A stretch of DNA of 64,000 nucleotides from Brevinematales bacterium (GTDB lineage: Bacteria; Spirochaetota; Brevinematia; Brevinematales; Thermospiraceae): the NCBI GenBank assembly GCA_013177995.1, contig JABLXN010000001.1, forward strand, positions 1-64,000, read 5' to 3'. A program made the translations under genes and the position numbers. Below, in pieces: positions 12,878 through 44,910 of the stretch (position 1 is the stretch's first letter; every line of letters begins with the position of its first letter). The notes under the pieces are model-generated. The model was given only the letters and a program-made list of their open reading frames with translations. It was not told the origin of the DNA and did no database searches.

Positions 12878-13481
12878 TCTTTCCCCCTTCGTCTGTAATA
12901 AGTAGATATATTATTCTTGACACTCTATCTATATATCTTTTCTTAATAATCTCACCTGCTTCTTCATCAATCTTACCTCCCAGCTTGTCTTTGAGACTTA
13001 AATATCCTATGATCAAATTCGTAACAAGAATTTGTTCAACAAGAGTTATATCAAAATTTATACTTTCCCTCCTCATCTTTTTTATCATAGTCTCAACCTT
13101 TTCAAAAACAAGTCCGACTGTATCTATGATATTTGTTCCCCATCTTGAAGATATATTTAAACTTTCTCTCTGGTAAATTCTTATTAACATATCGTTTTTA
13201 TCAATATAATTTATCCCTTCTTCGACAAAAAAATGTATAATTTCTTCAAGGTCTTTAAAATCAGAAAGGTTAATATCTTCAATAATTGAAGTAAATTCAT
13301 TGATGCTTTTTCTTATAATACTTGACAATAACTCTTCTTTACTTGAGAAATAATAATATATCATTGCCTTGTTGATTTCTGCATTTCTTGCAATTTCATC
13401 AACAGAAGTAGCGTCAAATCCCTTTTCTGCAAAAAGTTTTATCGCCGATTCAAGAATTCTATCCTTTGGTTTTAAATCCAT
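12861..13481 (-). CDS. TetR-family transcriptional regulator
   Basis: The 206-residue protein begins with a TetR helix-turn-helix: 'RILESAIKLFAEKGFDATSV' then 'IARNAEINKAMIYYYFSSKEELL' (residues 8-51). The remainder is a helical ligand/dimer domain without recognisable specificity. It is the first gene of the RND operon. Its promoter (13530-13558) is followed at once by two 16-bp operator-like boxes (13495-13527), so autoregulation and repression of the exporter operon are likely. The start ATG has GGGGAGAG eight bases upstream. Like the exporter genes, it is AT-rich compared with the flanking ilvD. Confidence 0.88.
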   Translation of the reverse strand: MDLKPKDRILESAIKLFAEKGFDATSVDEIARNAEINKAMIYYYFSSKEELLSSIIRKSINEFTSIIEDINLSDFKDLEEIIHFFVEEGINYIDKNDMLIRIYQRESLNISSRWGTNIIDTVGLVFEKVETMIKKMRRESINFDITLVEQILVTNLIIGYLSLKDKLGGKIDEEAGEIIKKRYIDRVSRIIYLLITDEGGKNEKIF

Positions 13482-13494
13482 TTCTCTCCCCTTT

Positions 13495-13527
13495 AACCGA
13501 CCGATTAGTTAAACTAACCATTCAGTT
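13495..13527 (-). promoter_or_regulatory. Tandem TetR operator-like boxes
   Basis: AACCGACCGATTAGTT (13495-13510) and AACTAACCATTCAGTT (13512-13527) are separated by one A. Each is an imperfect palindrome and the pair also forms a larger inverted repeat around TTAGTT-A-AACTAA. They lie between the -10 box and the tetR start, where a bound repressor would block transcription. Confidence 0.75.
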
Positions 13528-13529
13528 AA

Positions 13530-13558
13530 ATAATAAAGACAAGGTTCTAAAAAGTCAA
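13530..13558 (-). promoter_or_regulatory. Sigma70-type promoter of tetR-RND operon
   Basis: On the minus strand, -35 TTGACT (13558-13553), a 17-nt spacer, and -10 TATTAT (13535-13530). The operator boxes start two bases downstream of the -10. Confidence 0.85.
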
Positions 13559-13842
13559 GTCTCCGAACATAATTTTGAAAATATTTTGCTAAACACTTTC
13601 TGTAAATCTTGTCAATTCGCCCAACTACCTCCTTTTCCCACTATTTTCAAGTATGCATAGGCATTGAATACCCTGGACAAACATCCTTAATTTCCACTTT
13701 CCCCGTTTTTGGAAATTTTTCTACGAACCTTTTCATTTTTCCATGCTACCAAAATGTGGAAAAAAAGAATATCCTGCATTACAATACTTCTGAATAGCCT
13801 CTTTCAGGGCTTATTCAAAACCTGTAAAAATGGAGGAAAGTT
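13559..13842 (+). promoter_or_regulatory. Upstream region of ilvD
   Basis: This intergenic stretch holds no gene I can support. TGGAAA (13757-13762), a 17-nt spacer and TACAAT (13780-13785) form a plausible promoter for ilvD. A small stem (GAATAGCC with GGCTTATTC, about 13792-13817) lies in the predicted leader but is not followed by a T run. I see no T-box or leader peptide. Confidence 0.45.
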
Positions 13843-15516
13843 ATGCAAAGCGATGCGGTCAAAAAGGGATTTCAGAGGGCCCCCCATCGTTCCCTTTTCC
13901 GGGCCATGGGGTTTGATGACTGGGAACTTGAGCGTCCTCTCATTGGCATAGCCAATTCATTCAATGAAGCCATTCCCGGCCACATTCATCTCAACAAGAT
14001 TGCCGATGCTGTAAAACGAGGTATCTATGCCGCAGGTGGTATGCCTATCGAATTCAATACCATCGGAGTATGTGATGGTATTGCCATGGGGCACAGGGGA
14101 ATGAAATACTCCCTTCCTTCCCGAGAGCTTATCGCTGATTCTATAGAGATTATGGCAGAGGCCTATCAATTCGATGGCATTGTCTTTATTGCCTCATGTG
14201 ATAAAATTATCCCAGGGATGCTCATTGCTGCCATGCGTCTGAATCTTCCAGCCATCTTTGTGAGTGGTGGTCCCATGCTTCCCGGTATGCTTGTGAATCA
14301 AAACAAAGTAGACCTCAGTACTGTTTTTGAAGCCACTGGTAAATACGCCAAAAAAGAGATCTCCGATGAAGAACTCTACGACCTTGAATGCCGGGCCTGT
14401 CCAGGAGACGGTTCCTGCGCCGGAATGTTCACAGCCAACACCATGAGTAATCTCTCCGAAGCCCTTGGTATTTCTCTTCCTTTCAATGGAAGTGCCCCGG
14501 CTGTATTTGCCGATCGTATCCGTATTGCCAAAAAATCAGGTCTGAAAATCGTGGAATTGGTCAAGAAGAACATCAGGGCTAGGGATATCATGACGCGCAA
14601 GGCCTTTGAAAATGCTATTGCCGTTGACATGGCTCTCGGTGGCTCAACGAACACCACCCTTCATCTTCCGGCTATTGCGTATTATGGGGAAGTGGATCTT
14701 GAACTCAAAGACTTTGCTCCCTTTACCGAAAAGGTTCCCCATCTCACCACGATTTCTCCTGCAGGACCTCATCACATCCTTGATCTGTACCGTGCCGGTG
14801 GTGTTCCTGCTGTTCTCGCTGAACTTTCCAAGAAAAACCTCATTCACCTTGATACCATGACAGTCAACGGAAAGACATTGGGAGAGACTCTCAAAGAATA
14901 CAAGGCCGGTATCAAAGATCCCACAGTTATTCGTCCTATTGACAAGCCCGTCCACGAAACAGGCGGACTTGCGGTTCTCACGGGCAATTTAGCCCCAGAG
15001 GGTTGTATTGTCAAACAGGCCGCCGTGGCCCCTGAAATGCTTCATCACAAAGGACCAGCTCGCGTGTTCAATAGTGAGGAAGAGGCGGTAGAAGCCCTCC
15101 TGAAAGGCAAAATCAAAAAGGGCGATGTGATTGTGATTCGTTATGAAGGACCAAAGGGAGGACCGGGAATGAGAGAGATGTTAGCCCCAACCTCCACCGT
15201 CGCCGGCCTCGGCCTTGACAAGGAGGTGGCTCTCATCACCGATGGGCGATTTAGCGGTGCCACCCGTGGGGCTTCCATAGGACATATTTCCCCGGAAGCT
15301 GCTGCTGGTGGACTTATTGGACTTGTAGAAGAAGGAGACATGATAGAAATCGATATCCCCAACAAAAAAATTAACCTCCTGGTCGATGAAAAGGAAATAG
15401 AAAAACGCAAAGCCAATTTCAAACCCCTTCCTCCCAAAATCACCAAAGGATATCTTGTTCGTTATGCCCAGCACGTCACCTCCGCCAACAAGGGAGGAGT
15501 TTTCGAAAAACGATAA
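13843..15516 (+). CDS. ilvD: Dihydroxy-acid dehydratase
   Basis: The 557-residue enzyme dehydrates 2,3-dihydroxy acids to 2-keto acids in isoleucine and valine synthesis, in the cytoplasm. Family signatures are '[20 protein letters not shown]' (75-94), 'SCDKIIPGM' (118-126) and '[15 protein letters not shown]' (187-201). The Fe-S/Mg site residues Cys77, Cys119 and Cys192 are visible. Residues 44-47 read IPGH, as in E. coli-type enzymes, rather than the TPCN seen in the other class. The length is normal. GGAGG lies seven bases before the ATG. It is monocistronic, bounded by a strong terminator at 15538; no other ilv/leu gene is nearby. Confidence 0.96.
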
Positions 15517-38422: not shown

Positions 38423-38646
38423 GAGACCTTTGCACAAATGTGCAAAGGTCTCAAGAAAGTGGTAAAAAAACAAAAAATAGTATAAAAATGTTCCTTAACG
38501 TAATAAATAAAACTATTCCTTTGAACAAAAAAAGACAAATAAGCCCTTGTAAATGGAAAAAGCGAGGTTTCAGGGGCGTAGCCCCTGACCCAGACAGGGG
38601 AAGAAAACACCCGTGCAAGGGTCTCATTCTTATGAATGTGGAACGA
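38423..38646 (+). repeat. Interspersed hairpin element, copy B
   Basis: It starts with GAGACCTTTGCA (38423-38434), loop CAAATG, TGCAAAGGTCTC (38441-38452). About 115 nt of AT-rich sequence follow, then the inner hairpin AGGGGC-GTA-GCCCCT (about 38572-38586), CACCCGTGCAAGGGTCTC ending at 38625, and a short palindrome CATTCTTATGAATG. The conserved block runs on to GGAACGAC (38646). Copy C shares the whole length. The 38284-38700 interval holds no supported protein gene. Confidence 0.87.
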
Positions 38647-38700
38647 CCTCCCACTTTTCTCGACCACAAAATACCCTGAAAAAATCCCTTTCCATTTCTC

Positions 38701-41075: not shown

Positions 41076-41345
41076 TCAAACACCTTTCTTTTCTCCCCTA
41101 TCCCCCTTTTTCACCTCAATGCCCAAAAGGGCAAGAGATCTCACAAATTCCTCACCATCAAAATCCCTTTCAGCTTGAAAAGAAATCCTGTCCCTTTCAA
41201 ACACCACATCCCGCACTCCCCCCATCGCGTCTAACAAAGCCGCCACTTCATGCCGACAAAAACTTCCTTTCACTTCCCAGACATAGCGTTTTGTCCTCAC
41301 CACCACCGAAGAAGAGCGCCTTTTGCCGCAACCGCACCCTCTCAT
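41076..41345 (-). CDS. Small Cys-rich-N-terminus protein with HMA-like fold
   Basis: The 89-residue product overlaps the histidine kinase stop by 4 nt (ATGA), so it belongs to the same operon. The N-terminus is MRGCGCGKRR. The rest (residues 20-80) follows the beta-alpha-beta-beta-alpha-beta pattern of heavy-metal-associated domains ('YVWEVKGSFCRHEVAALLDAM', 'GGVRDVVFERDRISFQAE'). The CxxC metal loop is replaced by FCRHE. It may be a ferredoxin-like ligand-binding or structural domain rather than a metal chaperone. The assignment is by pattern only. Confidence 0.6.
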   Translation of the reverse strand: MRGCGCGKRRSSSVVVRTKRYVWEVKGSFCRHEVAALLDAMGGVRDVVFERDRISFQAERDFDGEEFVRSLALLGIEVKKGDRGEKKGV

Positions 41346-43786
41346 GGTCGTGGAAATACCACCCTCACCCGAAGCCCCCCATCATTCACAAAAGAGACCC
41401 TCCCCCGCAGTTGCTCAGCTAAGATAAAAAGAAGTTTCAACCCCAAAGAACCACTGGACTTTGTTGGCTCAAAAGAAAGTCCAGGTCCATTGTCTGCCAC
41501 TTCCAGAACAAACCCCTCCTCACCAGAGACAAGAGAAATCCGAATAAAAGGATGTTCCTGTCCAGGAACCGCATACTTGAAGGCATTGGTCAATGCCTCA
41601 GAAACCCACAGTCCCAAAGGAATACATACCTCAAGTGGCAAAGAAACATCCTCTGTCTCCACCTCAATATGAAGCGGAGCCGCCATCTCATAAATACTTC
41701 TCACCGCATCGGCAAGATCCATGAGATATTCCCTCACCCTGATAGTGGAAAAGGAATGCGTCTGATAAAGCTTCTCATGGACAATCGCCATAGAGCGAAC
41801 TCTCACCTGACTATCAAGCATCACCCGCTTGATAGACTCTTCTTCTGTCTGATCCGCCTGAAGAGACAAAAGACTTGAAATAATCTGAAGGTTATTCTTC
41901 ACCCGATGGTGAATCTCCTTGAGAAGGACCTCTTTTTCTGCCAAGGCCTCTTCGATCTGTCTCTGCTGCTTTTTGATAGTGGTAATATCCACCATCACGC
42001 CGATGAGCCGAAGCGGTTGCTGGAAGATATCCCTTTCCACCACATGGGCTTTGTTCAGAACCCACCTTTCCTCTCCATTTTTTGCTGGTATCTTATGCTC
42101 AAGAGAAAACTCCTGTCTTTTTCCATTGCAATAGTCAAATATCATTTCGCGAAGGAAAGACGCATCCTCCTTCTCAAACTGAGTGAGCCAATTTTGAAGA
42201 GACGTGGCAAGGGGAAAACCCGTCTTTTTCTCCCAATCCTCTGAGAGAAGAAGTTCATCTCCAGGAATCATCCAATCCCAGAAGATGGCATTGGCTGTCT
42301 CAAGGGCTGTGGTGAGACGCTTCTCAGAAACCTGCAGTTTCTGTTCATACAACCGTCTCTGAGTAACATCAGCAAGCATCACCATCTTCCCCAAAAACCT
42401 ACCATCCGGTGCACACCAATCCTTGCTCTGAACAAAGAGCCATATCTTCTCTCCTTCAGCGGTGTAGAGCATCACCTCTTCTTTCACCACATGAAAACGT
42501 TCATAGGGTTTAATAGCCATCAAAAGGGGAAGTGGAATAGCAAAACCTCCTCCACTCCTTCCCTGCACAAGGGCTTCAATATCCGTTTTTGGTGGCACAC
42601 CTAAAAGACGGGCCCCCTCAGGATTGAGATACACCGCTGTTCCATCCGGCCGTACAATGAGAAGCCCTTCACTGAGAGACTGGACAATCTCCTGAATCAC
42701 CTGCCGGGAGTAGAGAAGACTTTCCTGTTCGGCTTTGAGAGAACGTACGAGTTGTTCCACCGTCGAGACAAAAAACTCCATCTCAGGAAAAGAAGCCTCC
42801 ACAGATTTCTCGTAGGGCTGCCCAGTAAGCATGGCCTTGGTGTACCTGACAAAAAAATCAAAAATACGTTGAAGGGTGGCCGAAAATTTCACCGCAATAA
42901 GAAGAGCAAGACTAAGTCCCATCACAAGAACCATGCCAATAAGTCCTATAAACTGATAGACAAACTGAAGCCAGAGAGAAGCCTCTATCTCCTCGACCAC
43001 AAACCACGGAAGATTTTTGATCCTGATGAAAAGATACGATTTTTTCCTCCCTCCACCCACATCAGAAAGCCACATAACATCTTCAGTTGAATTGACAAAC
43101 TCATGAAAACCAGGAAGATGTCCTACCCCCTCCGAGGTACTCACCCTCAAAGGATCGGTATGAACAATATAATTTCCATAGATATCCACAACCCCCATAG
43201 CCATTCTATAAAGCTGAAGCTGGGTAGAAAAATGGGCCAGTACCGAGGCAAGAGAAAAGACATACACGGCCTGTTTTTCAGGTGTACTATACTCTACAAG
43301 AAGATAGGATTTTCTCTCCCCTGGATAAGACACCACCTCATACCGAAGTTGTGAAAAGACCAGAGCCGATGAAGAAAAAAGCACAGGAAGATCCACCTCC
43401 TCCCACTGCTTTTCTCCAGCAAAAAATACCCGCTTTCCAGAGGAATCATAAAGAGCCACTGCCTGCAATTCTGAAAAATGTTTTCGCATTTTCTCAAACA
43501 TAAGCCGATGACGATCCGTGATCTCCCCACTTGTCAAGGGGAGTTGTTCAAAAGAGGAGACCACCAACCGTCGAAACATGTCTATATCTGTGGACACGAG
43601 ATCTGTGGCTAACAGAGCGCTAGCAGCTACCTGTCTCTGGTATTCAGCCCTCCACCAATGAAAGAAAAGAACCCCTGTAAATACCCCAGAAAATACCGTG
43701 ATCATCACCAAGAGAAGAACCGTTACTAACCGAACCTGTCGGCTCAACGGCCACGATTGCCAGAAGAAAAACCTCCTACCGTTCAC
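41342..43786 (-). CDS. Membrane sensor histidine kinase (PAS, HisKA_2)
   Basis: The 814-residue kinase has a membrane segment near 20-42, a periplasmic Cache-like domain (about 45-270, 'YDSSGKRVFFAGE', 'GVVDIYGNYIVHTDP') and a second membrane segment near 275-300. A linker then leads to PAS domains near 365-480 and 490-610 ('FWDWMIPGDELLLSEDWEKK'). The HisKA_2 motif 'KEIHHRVKNNLQIISSLLSLQ' holds the phospho-acceptor His near 624. The HATPase_c has 'SEALTNAFKYAV' and 'VADNGPGLS'. It overlaps the upstream binding-protein gene by 11 nt. No response regulator is adjacent. The lipoprotein may present a ligand to the Cache domain (inference). Confidence 0.92.
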   Translation of the reverse strand: MNGRRFFFWQSWPLSRQVRLVTVLLLVMITVFSGVFTGVLFFHWWRAEYQRQVAASALLATDLVSTDIDMFRRLVVSSFEQLPLTSGEITDRHRLMFEKMRKHFSELQAVALYDSSGKRVFFAGEKQWEEVDLPVLFSSSALVFSQLRYEVVSYPGERKSYLLVEYSTPEKQAVYVFSLASVLAHFSTQLQLYRMAMGVVDIYGNYIVHTDPLRVSTSEGVGHLPGFHEFVNSTEDVMWLSDVGGGRKKSYLFIRIKNLPWFVVEEIEASLWLQFVYQFIGLIGMVLVMGLSLALLIAVKFSATLQRIFDFFVRYTKAMLTGQPYEKSVEASFPEMEFFVSTVEQLVRSLKAEQESLLYSRQVIQEIVQSLSEGLLIVRPDGTAVYLNPEGARLLGVPPKTDIEALVQGRSGGGFAIPLPLLMAIKPYERFHVVKEEVMLYTAEGEKIWLFVQSKDWCAPDGRFLGKMVMLADVTQRRLYEQKLQVSEKRLTTALETANAIFWDWMIPGDELLLSEDWEKKTGFPLATSLQNWLTQFEKEDASFLREMIFDYCNGKRQEFSLEHKIPAKNGEERWVLNKAHVVERDIFQQPLRLIGVMVDITTIKKQQRQIEEALAEKEVLLKEIHHRVKNNLQIISSLLSLQADQTEEESIKRVMLDSQVRVRSMAIVHEKLYQTHSFSTIRVREYLMDLADAVRSIYEMAAPLHIEVETEDVSLPLEVCIPLGLWVSEALTNAFKYAVPGQEHPFIRISLVSGEEGFVLEVADNGPGLSFEPTKSSGSLGLKLLFILAEQLRGRVSFVNDGGLRVRVVFPRP

Positions 43787-44849
43787 GTCCCACCTTCCAC
43801 TGGTTACTTACCACTTGTATCAGATAAAGTGTTCTGGTAGCATCCCCATACTGATCAAGATACACCGCTGACTGGAGCCCGGCAAAAGTCTTAGGGAAAA
43901 GAGAAAACCATTTCTGACGCAAATGCCCTCGACTCTGCCGATAGAGGTCTACGGCCAACAAAAGACTCTCATATCCATACACAAAACCAAACGAAGGTTC
44001 CTGTTGATAGTTGGCTACAAACCGCTCATAAAGCTGACGATACACCGCATTGGTATGAGAGACCACAAAGTGCTGGACTGCTTTTGTCCCCTCTCCATAT
44101 TTCCCGCTCCACCGGAGAAAATACCTGTCCATAGCCCACCCAGCCACATACACCTGAAGACCAGAGAGCTTCTCTTTCACCTTCTGGACAAGAAGCCCCC
44201 CCTCATCCCCTGGGGTCACTAGCACAAGAGCTTGAGGTTTCCAGAGCAGGATTTTCTTCACCACCTCATCTAAAGAACCCTTCACGGCTGAATGATAGGA
44301 CAGAACTTGACAGAGGAGCCCTCTTCTTTGCCAGAAGTTGGTAAACTCCCCTATCCACGCCCGAGCATACGGCTCATTGGCTTCCGTGTACACCAGAAGA
44401 GGTTTTGACACCCCATCCTCCGCCATGAGATAGAGAATACTTCGTATCTCCTGAAGATTCTCGGGAACAATTCTTGCCATATAATCCCTCTGCCCACTCC
44501 AGAGAGAAGAACTCACCGTCGGTGGAATAATCGGAACCCGCAAGCTATTGGCCACAGGTATCACCTTCATTCCCGTAGCTGAATCAAACGGCCCAAGAAT
44601 CACATCTGGACCATAGGCCGCAATTTCCTGCGAAAGCTTTTCTTCATCAAGGCTATGCACATTGAGAACACGATAGACAATTTTTTGAGAAGGGGAAAGA
44701 TCCGCTATAGCCCAGAGAATACCTTCCCTCCCTTCCACATGCAGGGTTGAGGTAGCCCCTGAAAAATCCCCCACAATCAACACCCTCATTGGTCGAGAAC
44801 ACCCCACCACTGCCACAAGCAAAAAAAGCCGGCGGCTCGCCATATCCAC
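43776..44849 (-). CDS. Periplasmic ligand-binding lipoprotein (LivJ-type)
   Basis: The 357-residue product has a lipobox-like 'LVAVVGCSRP' (Cys at about 17), so it is probably lipid-anchored. The body is a type 1 periplasmic binding fold: 'RVLIVGDFSG', 'YGPDVILGPFDSATGMKVIPVAN', 'RVPIIPPTVSSSLWSG', 'ALVLVTPGDEGGLLVQKVKE' and 'SFGFVYGYESLLLAVDLY'. This fits the LivJ/AmiC group that binds amino acids or amides. There is no ABC permease nearby; instead it is translationally overlapped with a histidine kinase. The GTG start at 44849 follows GGAGG by ten bases. Confidence 0.85.
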   Translation of the reverse strand: MDMASRRLFLLVAVVGCSRPMRVLIVGDFSGATSTLHVEGREGILWAIADLSPSQKIVYRVLNVHSLDEEKLSQEIAAYGPDVILGPFDSATGMKVIPVANSLRVPIIPPTVSSSLWSGQRDYMARIVPENLQEIRSILYLMAEDGVSKPLLVYTEANEPYARAWIGEFTNFWQRRGLLCQVLSYHSAVKGSLDEVVKKILLWKPQALVLVTPGDEGGLLVQKVKEKLSGLQVYVAGWAMDRYFLRWSGKYGEGTKAVQHFVVSHTNAVYRQLYERFVANYQQEPSFGFVYGYESLLLAVDLYRQSRGHLRQKWFSLFPKTFAGLQSAVYLDQYGDATRTLYLIQVVSNQWKVGRER

Positions 44850-44881
44850 TTCATAACCGCCTCCTCTCTTTCTTCACTCAC

Positions 44882-44910
44882 ATTATAGACCAAACCACTT
44901 CTTTTTGCAA
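44882..44910 (-). promoter_or_regulatory. Promoter of the binding protein / kinase operon
   Basis: On the minus strand TTGCAA (44910-44905), 17-nt spacer, TATAAT (44887-44882). It lies between cvpA and the lipoprotein gene, so the sensory operon is transcribed on its own. Confidence 0.88.

Follow-up and report, generated by a model that had tools for sequence, protein, structure and literature searches.

The window analyzed in this study, a 64,000-nucleotide (nt) stretch from a Brevinematales bacterium (positions 1 to 64,000 of contig JABLXN010000001.1), carries three overlapping genes on its minus strand that encode a LivJ-type lipoprotein, a sensor histidine kinase, and a small protein. The lipoprotein and the kinase are likely to form a two-part receptor similar to LuxP-LuxQ, in which the loaded lipoprotein would act on the tandem Cache (dCache) region of the kinase and set the state of its HisKA_2 core. 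An initial annotation of the window had proposed that the lipoprotein hands its ligand to the kinase. A working partnership of the two proteins is well supported, in an indirect way, by their adjacency across the phylum Spirochaetota, the co-divergence of the lipoprotein with the sensor domain, the non-transport lineage of the lipoprotein, and a natural fusion, whereas the hand-over of a ligand is only one option. The three genes were confirmed at the places and on the strand given in that annotation, with overlaps of exactly 11 and 4 nt, as follows.

43776..44849, minus strand: lipoprotein gene, LivJ-type (Peripla_BP_6), 357 amino acids (aa), proposed signaling binding protein (from Pfam, lipobox, tree branch, and cleft residues)
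43776..43786, minus strand: 11-nt overlap of the lipoprotein and kinase genes
41342..43786, minus strand: sensor histidine kinase gene, 814 aa, with two membrane helices, dCache, two PAS domains, HisKA_2, and HATPase
42980..43660, minus strand: dCache sensor region of the kinase, periplasmic, approximately residues 43–269, proposed docking site (from the AlphaFold model, Foldseek, and co-divergence with the lipoprotein)
41342..41345, minus strand: 4-nt overlap (ATGA) of the kinase and small-protein genes
41076..41345, minus strand: small genus-specific protein gene, 89 aa, without a family match and under purifying selection (see below)

Gene products and conservation within the genus

The lipoprotein matched Peripla_BP_6 in Pfam (E = 2.9e-15) and has a plausible lipobox (LVAVVGC). 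The kinase, which had been read as Cache-PAS-PAS-HisKA_2, gave Pfam matches to PAS_4, PAS_3, HisKA_2 (2.1e-26), and HATPase_c, and both its phosphoacceptor motif (EIHHRVKNNLQ) and its ATPase boxes are intact. The PAS and HisKA_2 assignments were thus upheld by Pfam; the Cache domain had no Pfam match and was recovered from the modeled fold. The AlphaFold model of kinase residues 1–355 (mean predicted local distance difference test score, pLDDT, of 80) consists of a long helix and two dCache lobes, and its Foldseek matches were solved dCache sensors that belong to chemoreceptors, cyclases, and kinases (E of approximately 2e-08). As modeled, the sensor region of the kinase is a tandem Cache fold, placed in the periplasm by the membrane helices on either side of it. 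The absence of a transporter or response regulator nearby, which had also been noted initially, was corroborated: no ABC transporter was present among the flanking genes scanned, no LivHMGF genes adjoin the lipoprotein gene, and no receiver domain was found within the window.

A run of seven T lies near the lipoprotein start (window 44826-44860), and an ATG in another frame with a well-placed GGAGG is located just upstream. These features leave it uncertain whether the true start lies elsewhere or a one-base error is present; the start used here still yields a good lipoprotein signal.

For the genus comparison, the genome of the window and two congeneric genomes (G001 and G002) were used. In G001, all three genes are kept and overlap, with identities of 71% for the lipoprotein, 73% for the kinase, and 71% for the small protein. 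The ratios of the proportions of nonsynonymous and synonymous differences (pN/pS) from this comparison were 0.26, 0.25, and 0.24, respectively, indicating purifying selection on all three genes. As a second species (approximately 71–73% identity) shows the same order and overlaps under purifying selection, the trio is not a chance arrangement. G002 retains the lipoprotein gene and the greater part of the kinase gene, and an insertion sequence (IS)-like element with transposase-like open reading frames (ORFs), flanked by two copies of the 17-base repeat GGGGATCAGCTTGGTGG, lies inside the 3′ end of the latter (L032, approximately 13358-14655). Compared with G001, G002 has lost the last part of the kinase gene together with the beginning of the small gene, and the kinase C-terminus is replaced (repeat and deletion identified by visual inspection). 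The full-length small frame of G002 lacks a usual start codon, and because this start is lost, the small gene is broken in one of the three species.

Pairing of the lipoprotein and kinase across Spirochaetota

A first search detected distant relatives of the lipoprotein in 20 of 77 genomes outside the genus, and a single-sequence search with the N-terminal sensor half of the kinase matched nothing outside the genus. A lipoprotein profile (A3) was built from ten proteins and run on 393 genomes, and the neighborhoods of the best loci were read. For relatives with E < 1e-58, the next gene encoded a histidine kinase in 34 of 45 cases (seed rows included; in one of the 34, past a tandem second copy), the two ORFs were mostly overlapping or at most 26 nt apart, and none of the 45 had a LivH neighbor. 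Several of the remaining 11 loci were contig ends or badly framed ORFs. Weaker relatives were mostly followed by LivH, at least 27 nt downstream. The kinase domains of the partners varied among HisKA_2, HisKA, and hybrid types. Beyond Spirochaetota, a single contig scan returned only a contig of the same genus.

Two variants of the neighborhood were observed. In a sister family (L045:5020-9852, with the same order in L048 and L122), the lipoprotein is paired with a HisKA kinase that has its own receiver, followed by a gene assigned to a HAMP-SpoIIE phosphatase in a Pfam scan of L045; this suggests a partner-switching output. In L165:1420-5550 (G042), the gene after two tandem LivJ-type proteins encodes neither a kinase nor a transporter but a membrane SpoIIE phosphatase, which may be under the control of a binding protein.

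Separation from transport proteins and changed residues of the cleft

The tree and the residue analysis make no use of profile scores. In a 78-row tree, the kinase-linked and transport labels required two changes, and the branch holding all the transport rows was supported by a Shimodaira–Hasegawa-like approximate likelihood-ratio test (SH-aLRT) value of 99. The only kinase-linked row inside the transport branch was a double-domain protein (L050). This locus (L050:7259-11312, in G065) encodes a kinase and a stand-alone receiver downstream of a lipoprotein with two Peripla_BP_6 matches in one chain. The genome of the window harbors a separate LivJ that adjoins LivH, LivM, and LivG/F.

Column-aligned residues were compared between 38 kinase-linked and 23 transport rows, using the numbering of the window lipoprotein. 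Like the LivJ and HAAT transport proteins, the window lipoprotein has the same fold, the Peripla_BP_6 profile, and the Ser/Thr at position 90 and aromatic residue at position 161 that are kept in both groups. The groups differed in the acid of the cleft, which was found at position 237 in 20 of 23 transport rows but anywhere within 235–238 in only two of 38 kinase-linked rows, and in Tyr-Tyr at 213–214 (18 of 23 and one of 38, respectively). The window lipoprotein itself has neither the acid nor Tyr-Tyr, and a kinase adjoins it instead of LivHMGF. One extra residue before Tyr161 was present in 37 of 38 kinase-linked rows and one of 23 transport rows. Of the 38 kinase-linked rows, 35 had a conserved Trp at 238, and 17 of the 23 transport rows had a Trp in the next column; a gain of Trp238 in the kinase-linked proteins was considered and dropped, as the two groups probably share this Trp with a shift of one residue. 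The acid and Tyr positions of LivJ presumably contact the amino group and the side of the ligand, and from their loss, we infer a changed class of ligand. The ligand is probably a carboxylated metabolite and not a standard alpha-amino acid.

Co-divergence of the lipoprotein and sensor domain

Pairwise distances were correlated for 23 lipoprotein–kinase pairs, together with the species marker GatA from the same genomes. Lipoprotein distances followed those of the sensor domain (rho of 0.77; reached in none of 2000 permutations) and not those of GatA (−0.02) or of the C-terminal catalytic part of the kinase (0.19). For the 19 HisKA_2 kinases, the lipoprotein–sensor correlation was 0.75 (0.64 without the two congeners), and that between the sensor and the catalytic core was 0.22. 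Because the distances track the sensor, the lipoprotein and the sensor co-evolve, separately from the output. A common history of the species was disfavored as the source of the correlation because GatA was uncorrelated, with the proviso that some GatA rows could be paralogues.

These results also bear on a transport role. It is very improbable that the lipoprotein is an orphan transport protein serving LivHMGF, next to a kinase that regulates uptake and senses independently through its own dCache. Its membership in Peripla_BP_6, the presence of a LivH-linked system in the genome, and the fact that adjacent genes for solute-binding proteins (SBPs) and kinases are not always functionally linked would fit such a role; however, the transporter of the genome has its own LivJ, and the lipoprotein lies off the transport branch, lacks the acid and Tyr-Tyr of the cleft, and co-diverges with the sensor domain. 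None of 33 partner kinases matched a rough pattern for the amino-acid dCache signature; this result also speaks against this role and is consistent with indirect sensing, although it does not prove it.

Proposed receptor and comparison with known systems

Systems in which a binding protein acts on a kinase are known. LuxP-LuxQ, the autoinducer-2 receptor of Vibrio, likewise combines a periplasmic binding protein with a kinase that has a tandem Cache/PAS periplasmic domain. LuxP belongs to the sugar-type binding proteins and LuxQ is a hybrid kinase, whereas the window encodes a LivJ-type lipoprotein and a HisKA_2 kinase without a receiver. In TorT-TorS, XylFII-LytS, and AioX-AioS-AioR, a binding protein controls the kinase encoded beside it (PMC6321045, PMC5908839, PMC11113362); these systems use other families of binding proteins and sensors, and AioXSR has an adjacent response regulator. 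LuxP, TorT, and XylFII contact the sensor domains of their kinases (PMC6321045), and the genes are adjacent in 10 of 11 characterized SBP–kinase couples (PMC11113362). A natural fusion was found in Dret_0059 of Desulfohalobium (PDB 5ERE), whose one chain matches the lipoprotein profile at residues 4–320 and has a dCache domain at 322–562 (PMC8694187); in the window, the LivJ-like and dCache parts are encoded by two genes.

In the receptor proposed by analogy with LuxP-LuxQ, TorT-TorS, and XylFII-LytS, the lipoprotein, anchored to a membrane that faces the periplasm, would close on a small ligand. The closed form would dock on the dCache of the kinase and change its autophosphorylation, and the HisKA_2 histidine would pass the phosphate to a response regulator encoded elsewhere. 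We infer the physical contact, the ligand class, the direction of control, and the regulator in this scheme. The genome holds 22 receiver-domain matches, and comparing them by similarity with the receiver domains of partner kinases gave no clear candidate for the regulator. The loaded lipoprotein may itself be the signal, as in LuxP-LuxQ and TorT-TorS. Alternatively, the lipoprotein may serve to withhold its ligand, with the kinase kept in one state by the apo form and released by the ligand, as proposed for receptors of the LuxP-LuxQ type; this is a serious possibility, although somewhat less likely than not. LuxP, XylFII, and TorT bind their kinases in both the apo and holo forms (PMC6321045).

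Several points weigh against the two-part receptor. The profile seeds, counted among the 45 relatives, were mostly kinase-linked; the score ranking therefore favors kinase-linked proteins and is not independent evidence. The co-inheritance of neighbors without contact can also yield correlated divergence, and anchoring of the lipoprotein in the outer membrane would make contact harder. As the kinase C-terminus is cut in G002, the system may be dispensable there. In Pseudomonas aeruginosa, neighboring SBP and kinase genes without interaction of their products were reported (PMC11113362).

In the open-access papers searched, no spirochaete pairing of a LivJ-type protein with a kinase was found described. 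A transporter-free LivJ-type branch across Spirochaetota, with a changed cleft and module-like co-divergence, is apparently undescribed. We tentatively propose, as one possibility, that LivJ-derived lipoproteins throughout the phylum left transport and became separate sensor heads of dCache kinases, with the cleft remodeled for a non-standard ligand; the lipoprotein and sensor would move as a single module between HisKA, HisKA_2, and hybrid kinase cores, and in this genus a small third subunit in the cytoplasm would have been added. Most sensor kinases have no assigned signal, and the part played by binding proteins in sensing receives too little recognition, with only 11 characterized SBP–kinase couples counted in one study. 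A residue signature of the transporter-free family would separate signaling from transport binding proteins by sequence, and the dozens of natural pairs could be used to study the control of dCache kinases by binding proteins, with a bearing on nutrient sensing by spirochaetes.

The small third protein

The initial annotation described the small protein as HMA-like and possibly acting on the kinase in the cytoplasm, which is unproven because one Cys is missing, no profile matched, the gene is confined to the genus, and its start is lost in one species. No family match was obtained in Pfam, NCBIfam, or PDB, and across 387 genomes of the phylum, searches with a profile detected no relative above chance outside the genus (matches with E of 0.003–0.01 were taken as chance). 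Its model (mean pLDDT of 79) has a ferredoxin-like fold that resembles the beta-alpha-beta-beta-alpha-beta topology of HMA metallochaperone domains, and the best fold similarities include HAH1, CCS, and the P2 domain of CheA, none of which were significant (for HAH1, template modeling score of 0.66 on the target and E of 0.97). In contrast to HMA domains, FCRHE replaces the CxxC motif, leaving one of the two metal-site cysteines, and a profile comparison with the HMA domains of the same genome was negative. Membership in the HMA family was therefore rejected on sequence.

An obligate three-protein signaling complex, with the small protein as a metal-binding or regulatory cytoplasmic subunit, is unlikely. 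The ATGA overlap, the purifying selection in two species, and the resemblance of the ferredoxin-like model to HAH1 and CheA P2 would agree with such a complex, but the small protein is restricted to the genus while the pair is phylum-wide, its gene is broken in G002, its metal site is down to one Cys, and it has no significant fold or profile match. The small gene looks real and selected in two species, and its product is a genus-specific addition that perhaps, as a guess, tunes the kinase.

Separated homologues in other genomes, or a transporter using the same binding protein, had been named as evidence that would count against the three-gene arrangement. Homologues of the lipoprotein and kinase are generally not separated, and a LivJ of its own goes with the transporter; the third gene, however, is absent wherever else the pair occurs. 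The three-gene order recurs in G001, and the pair alone is conserved across the phylum.

Other features of the locus

One further feature was noted upstream of the trio.

44882..44910, minus strand: promoter-like site TTGCAA-17-TATAAT, in the 68-nt gap upstream of the trio (weak evidence)

Such promoter-like sites were equally frequent in shuffled sequence. A dispersed repeat, which translates as fragments such as GSGATPLKPRFF, was observed at approximately 38440-38700 of the window and also in L054, L072, and L076; it recurs near several genes of the genome and seems to wrongly lengthen the alanyl-tRNA synthetase ORF. ORFs in L056, L059, and L060 begin with a different repeated leader (MKVNSLRMGSSLCPIIGQGG).

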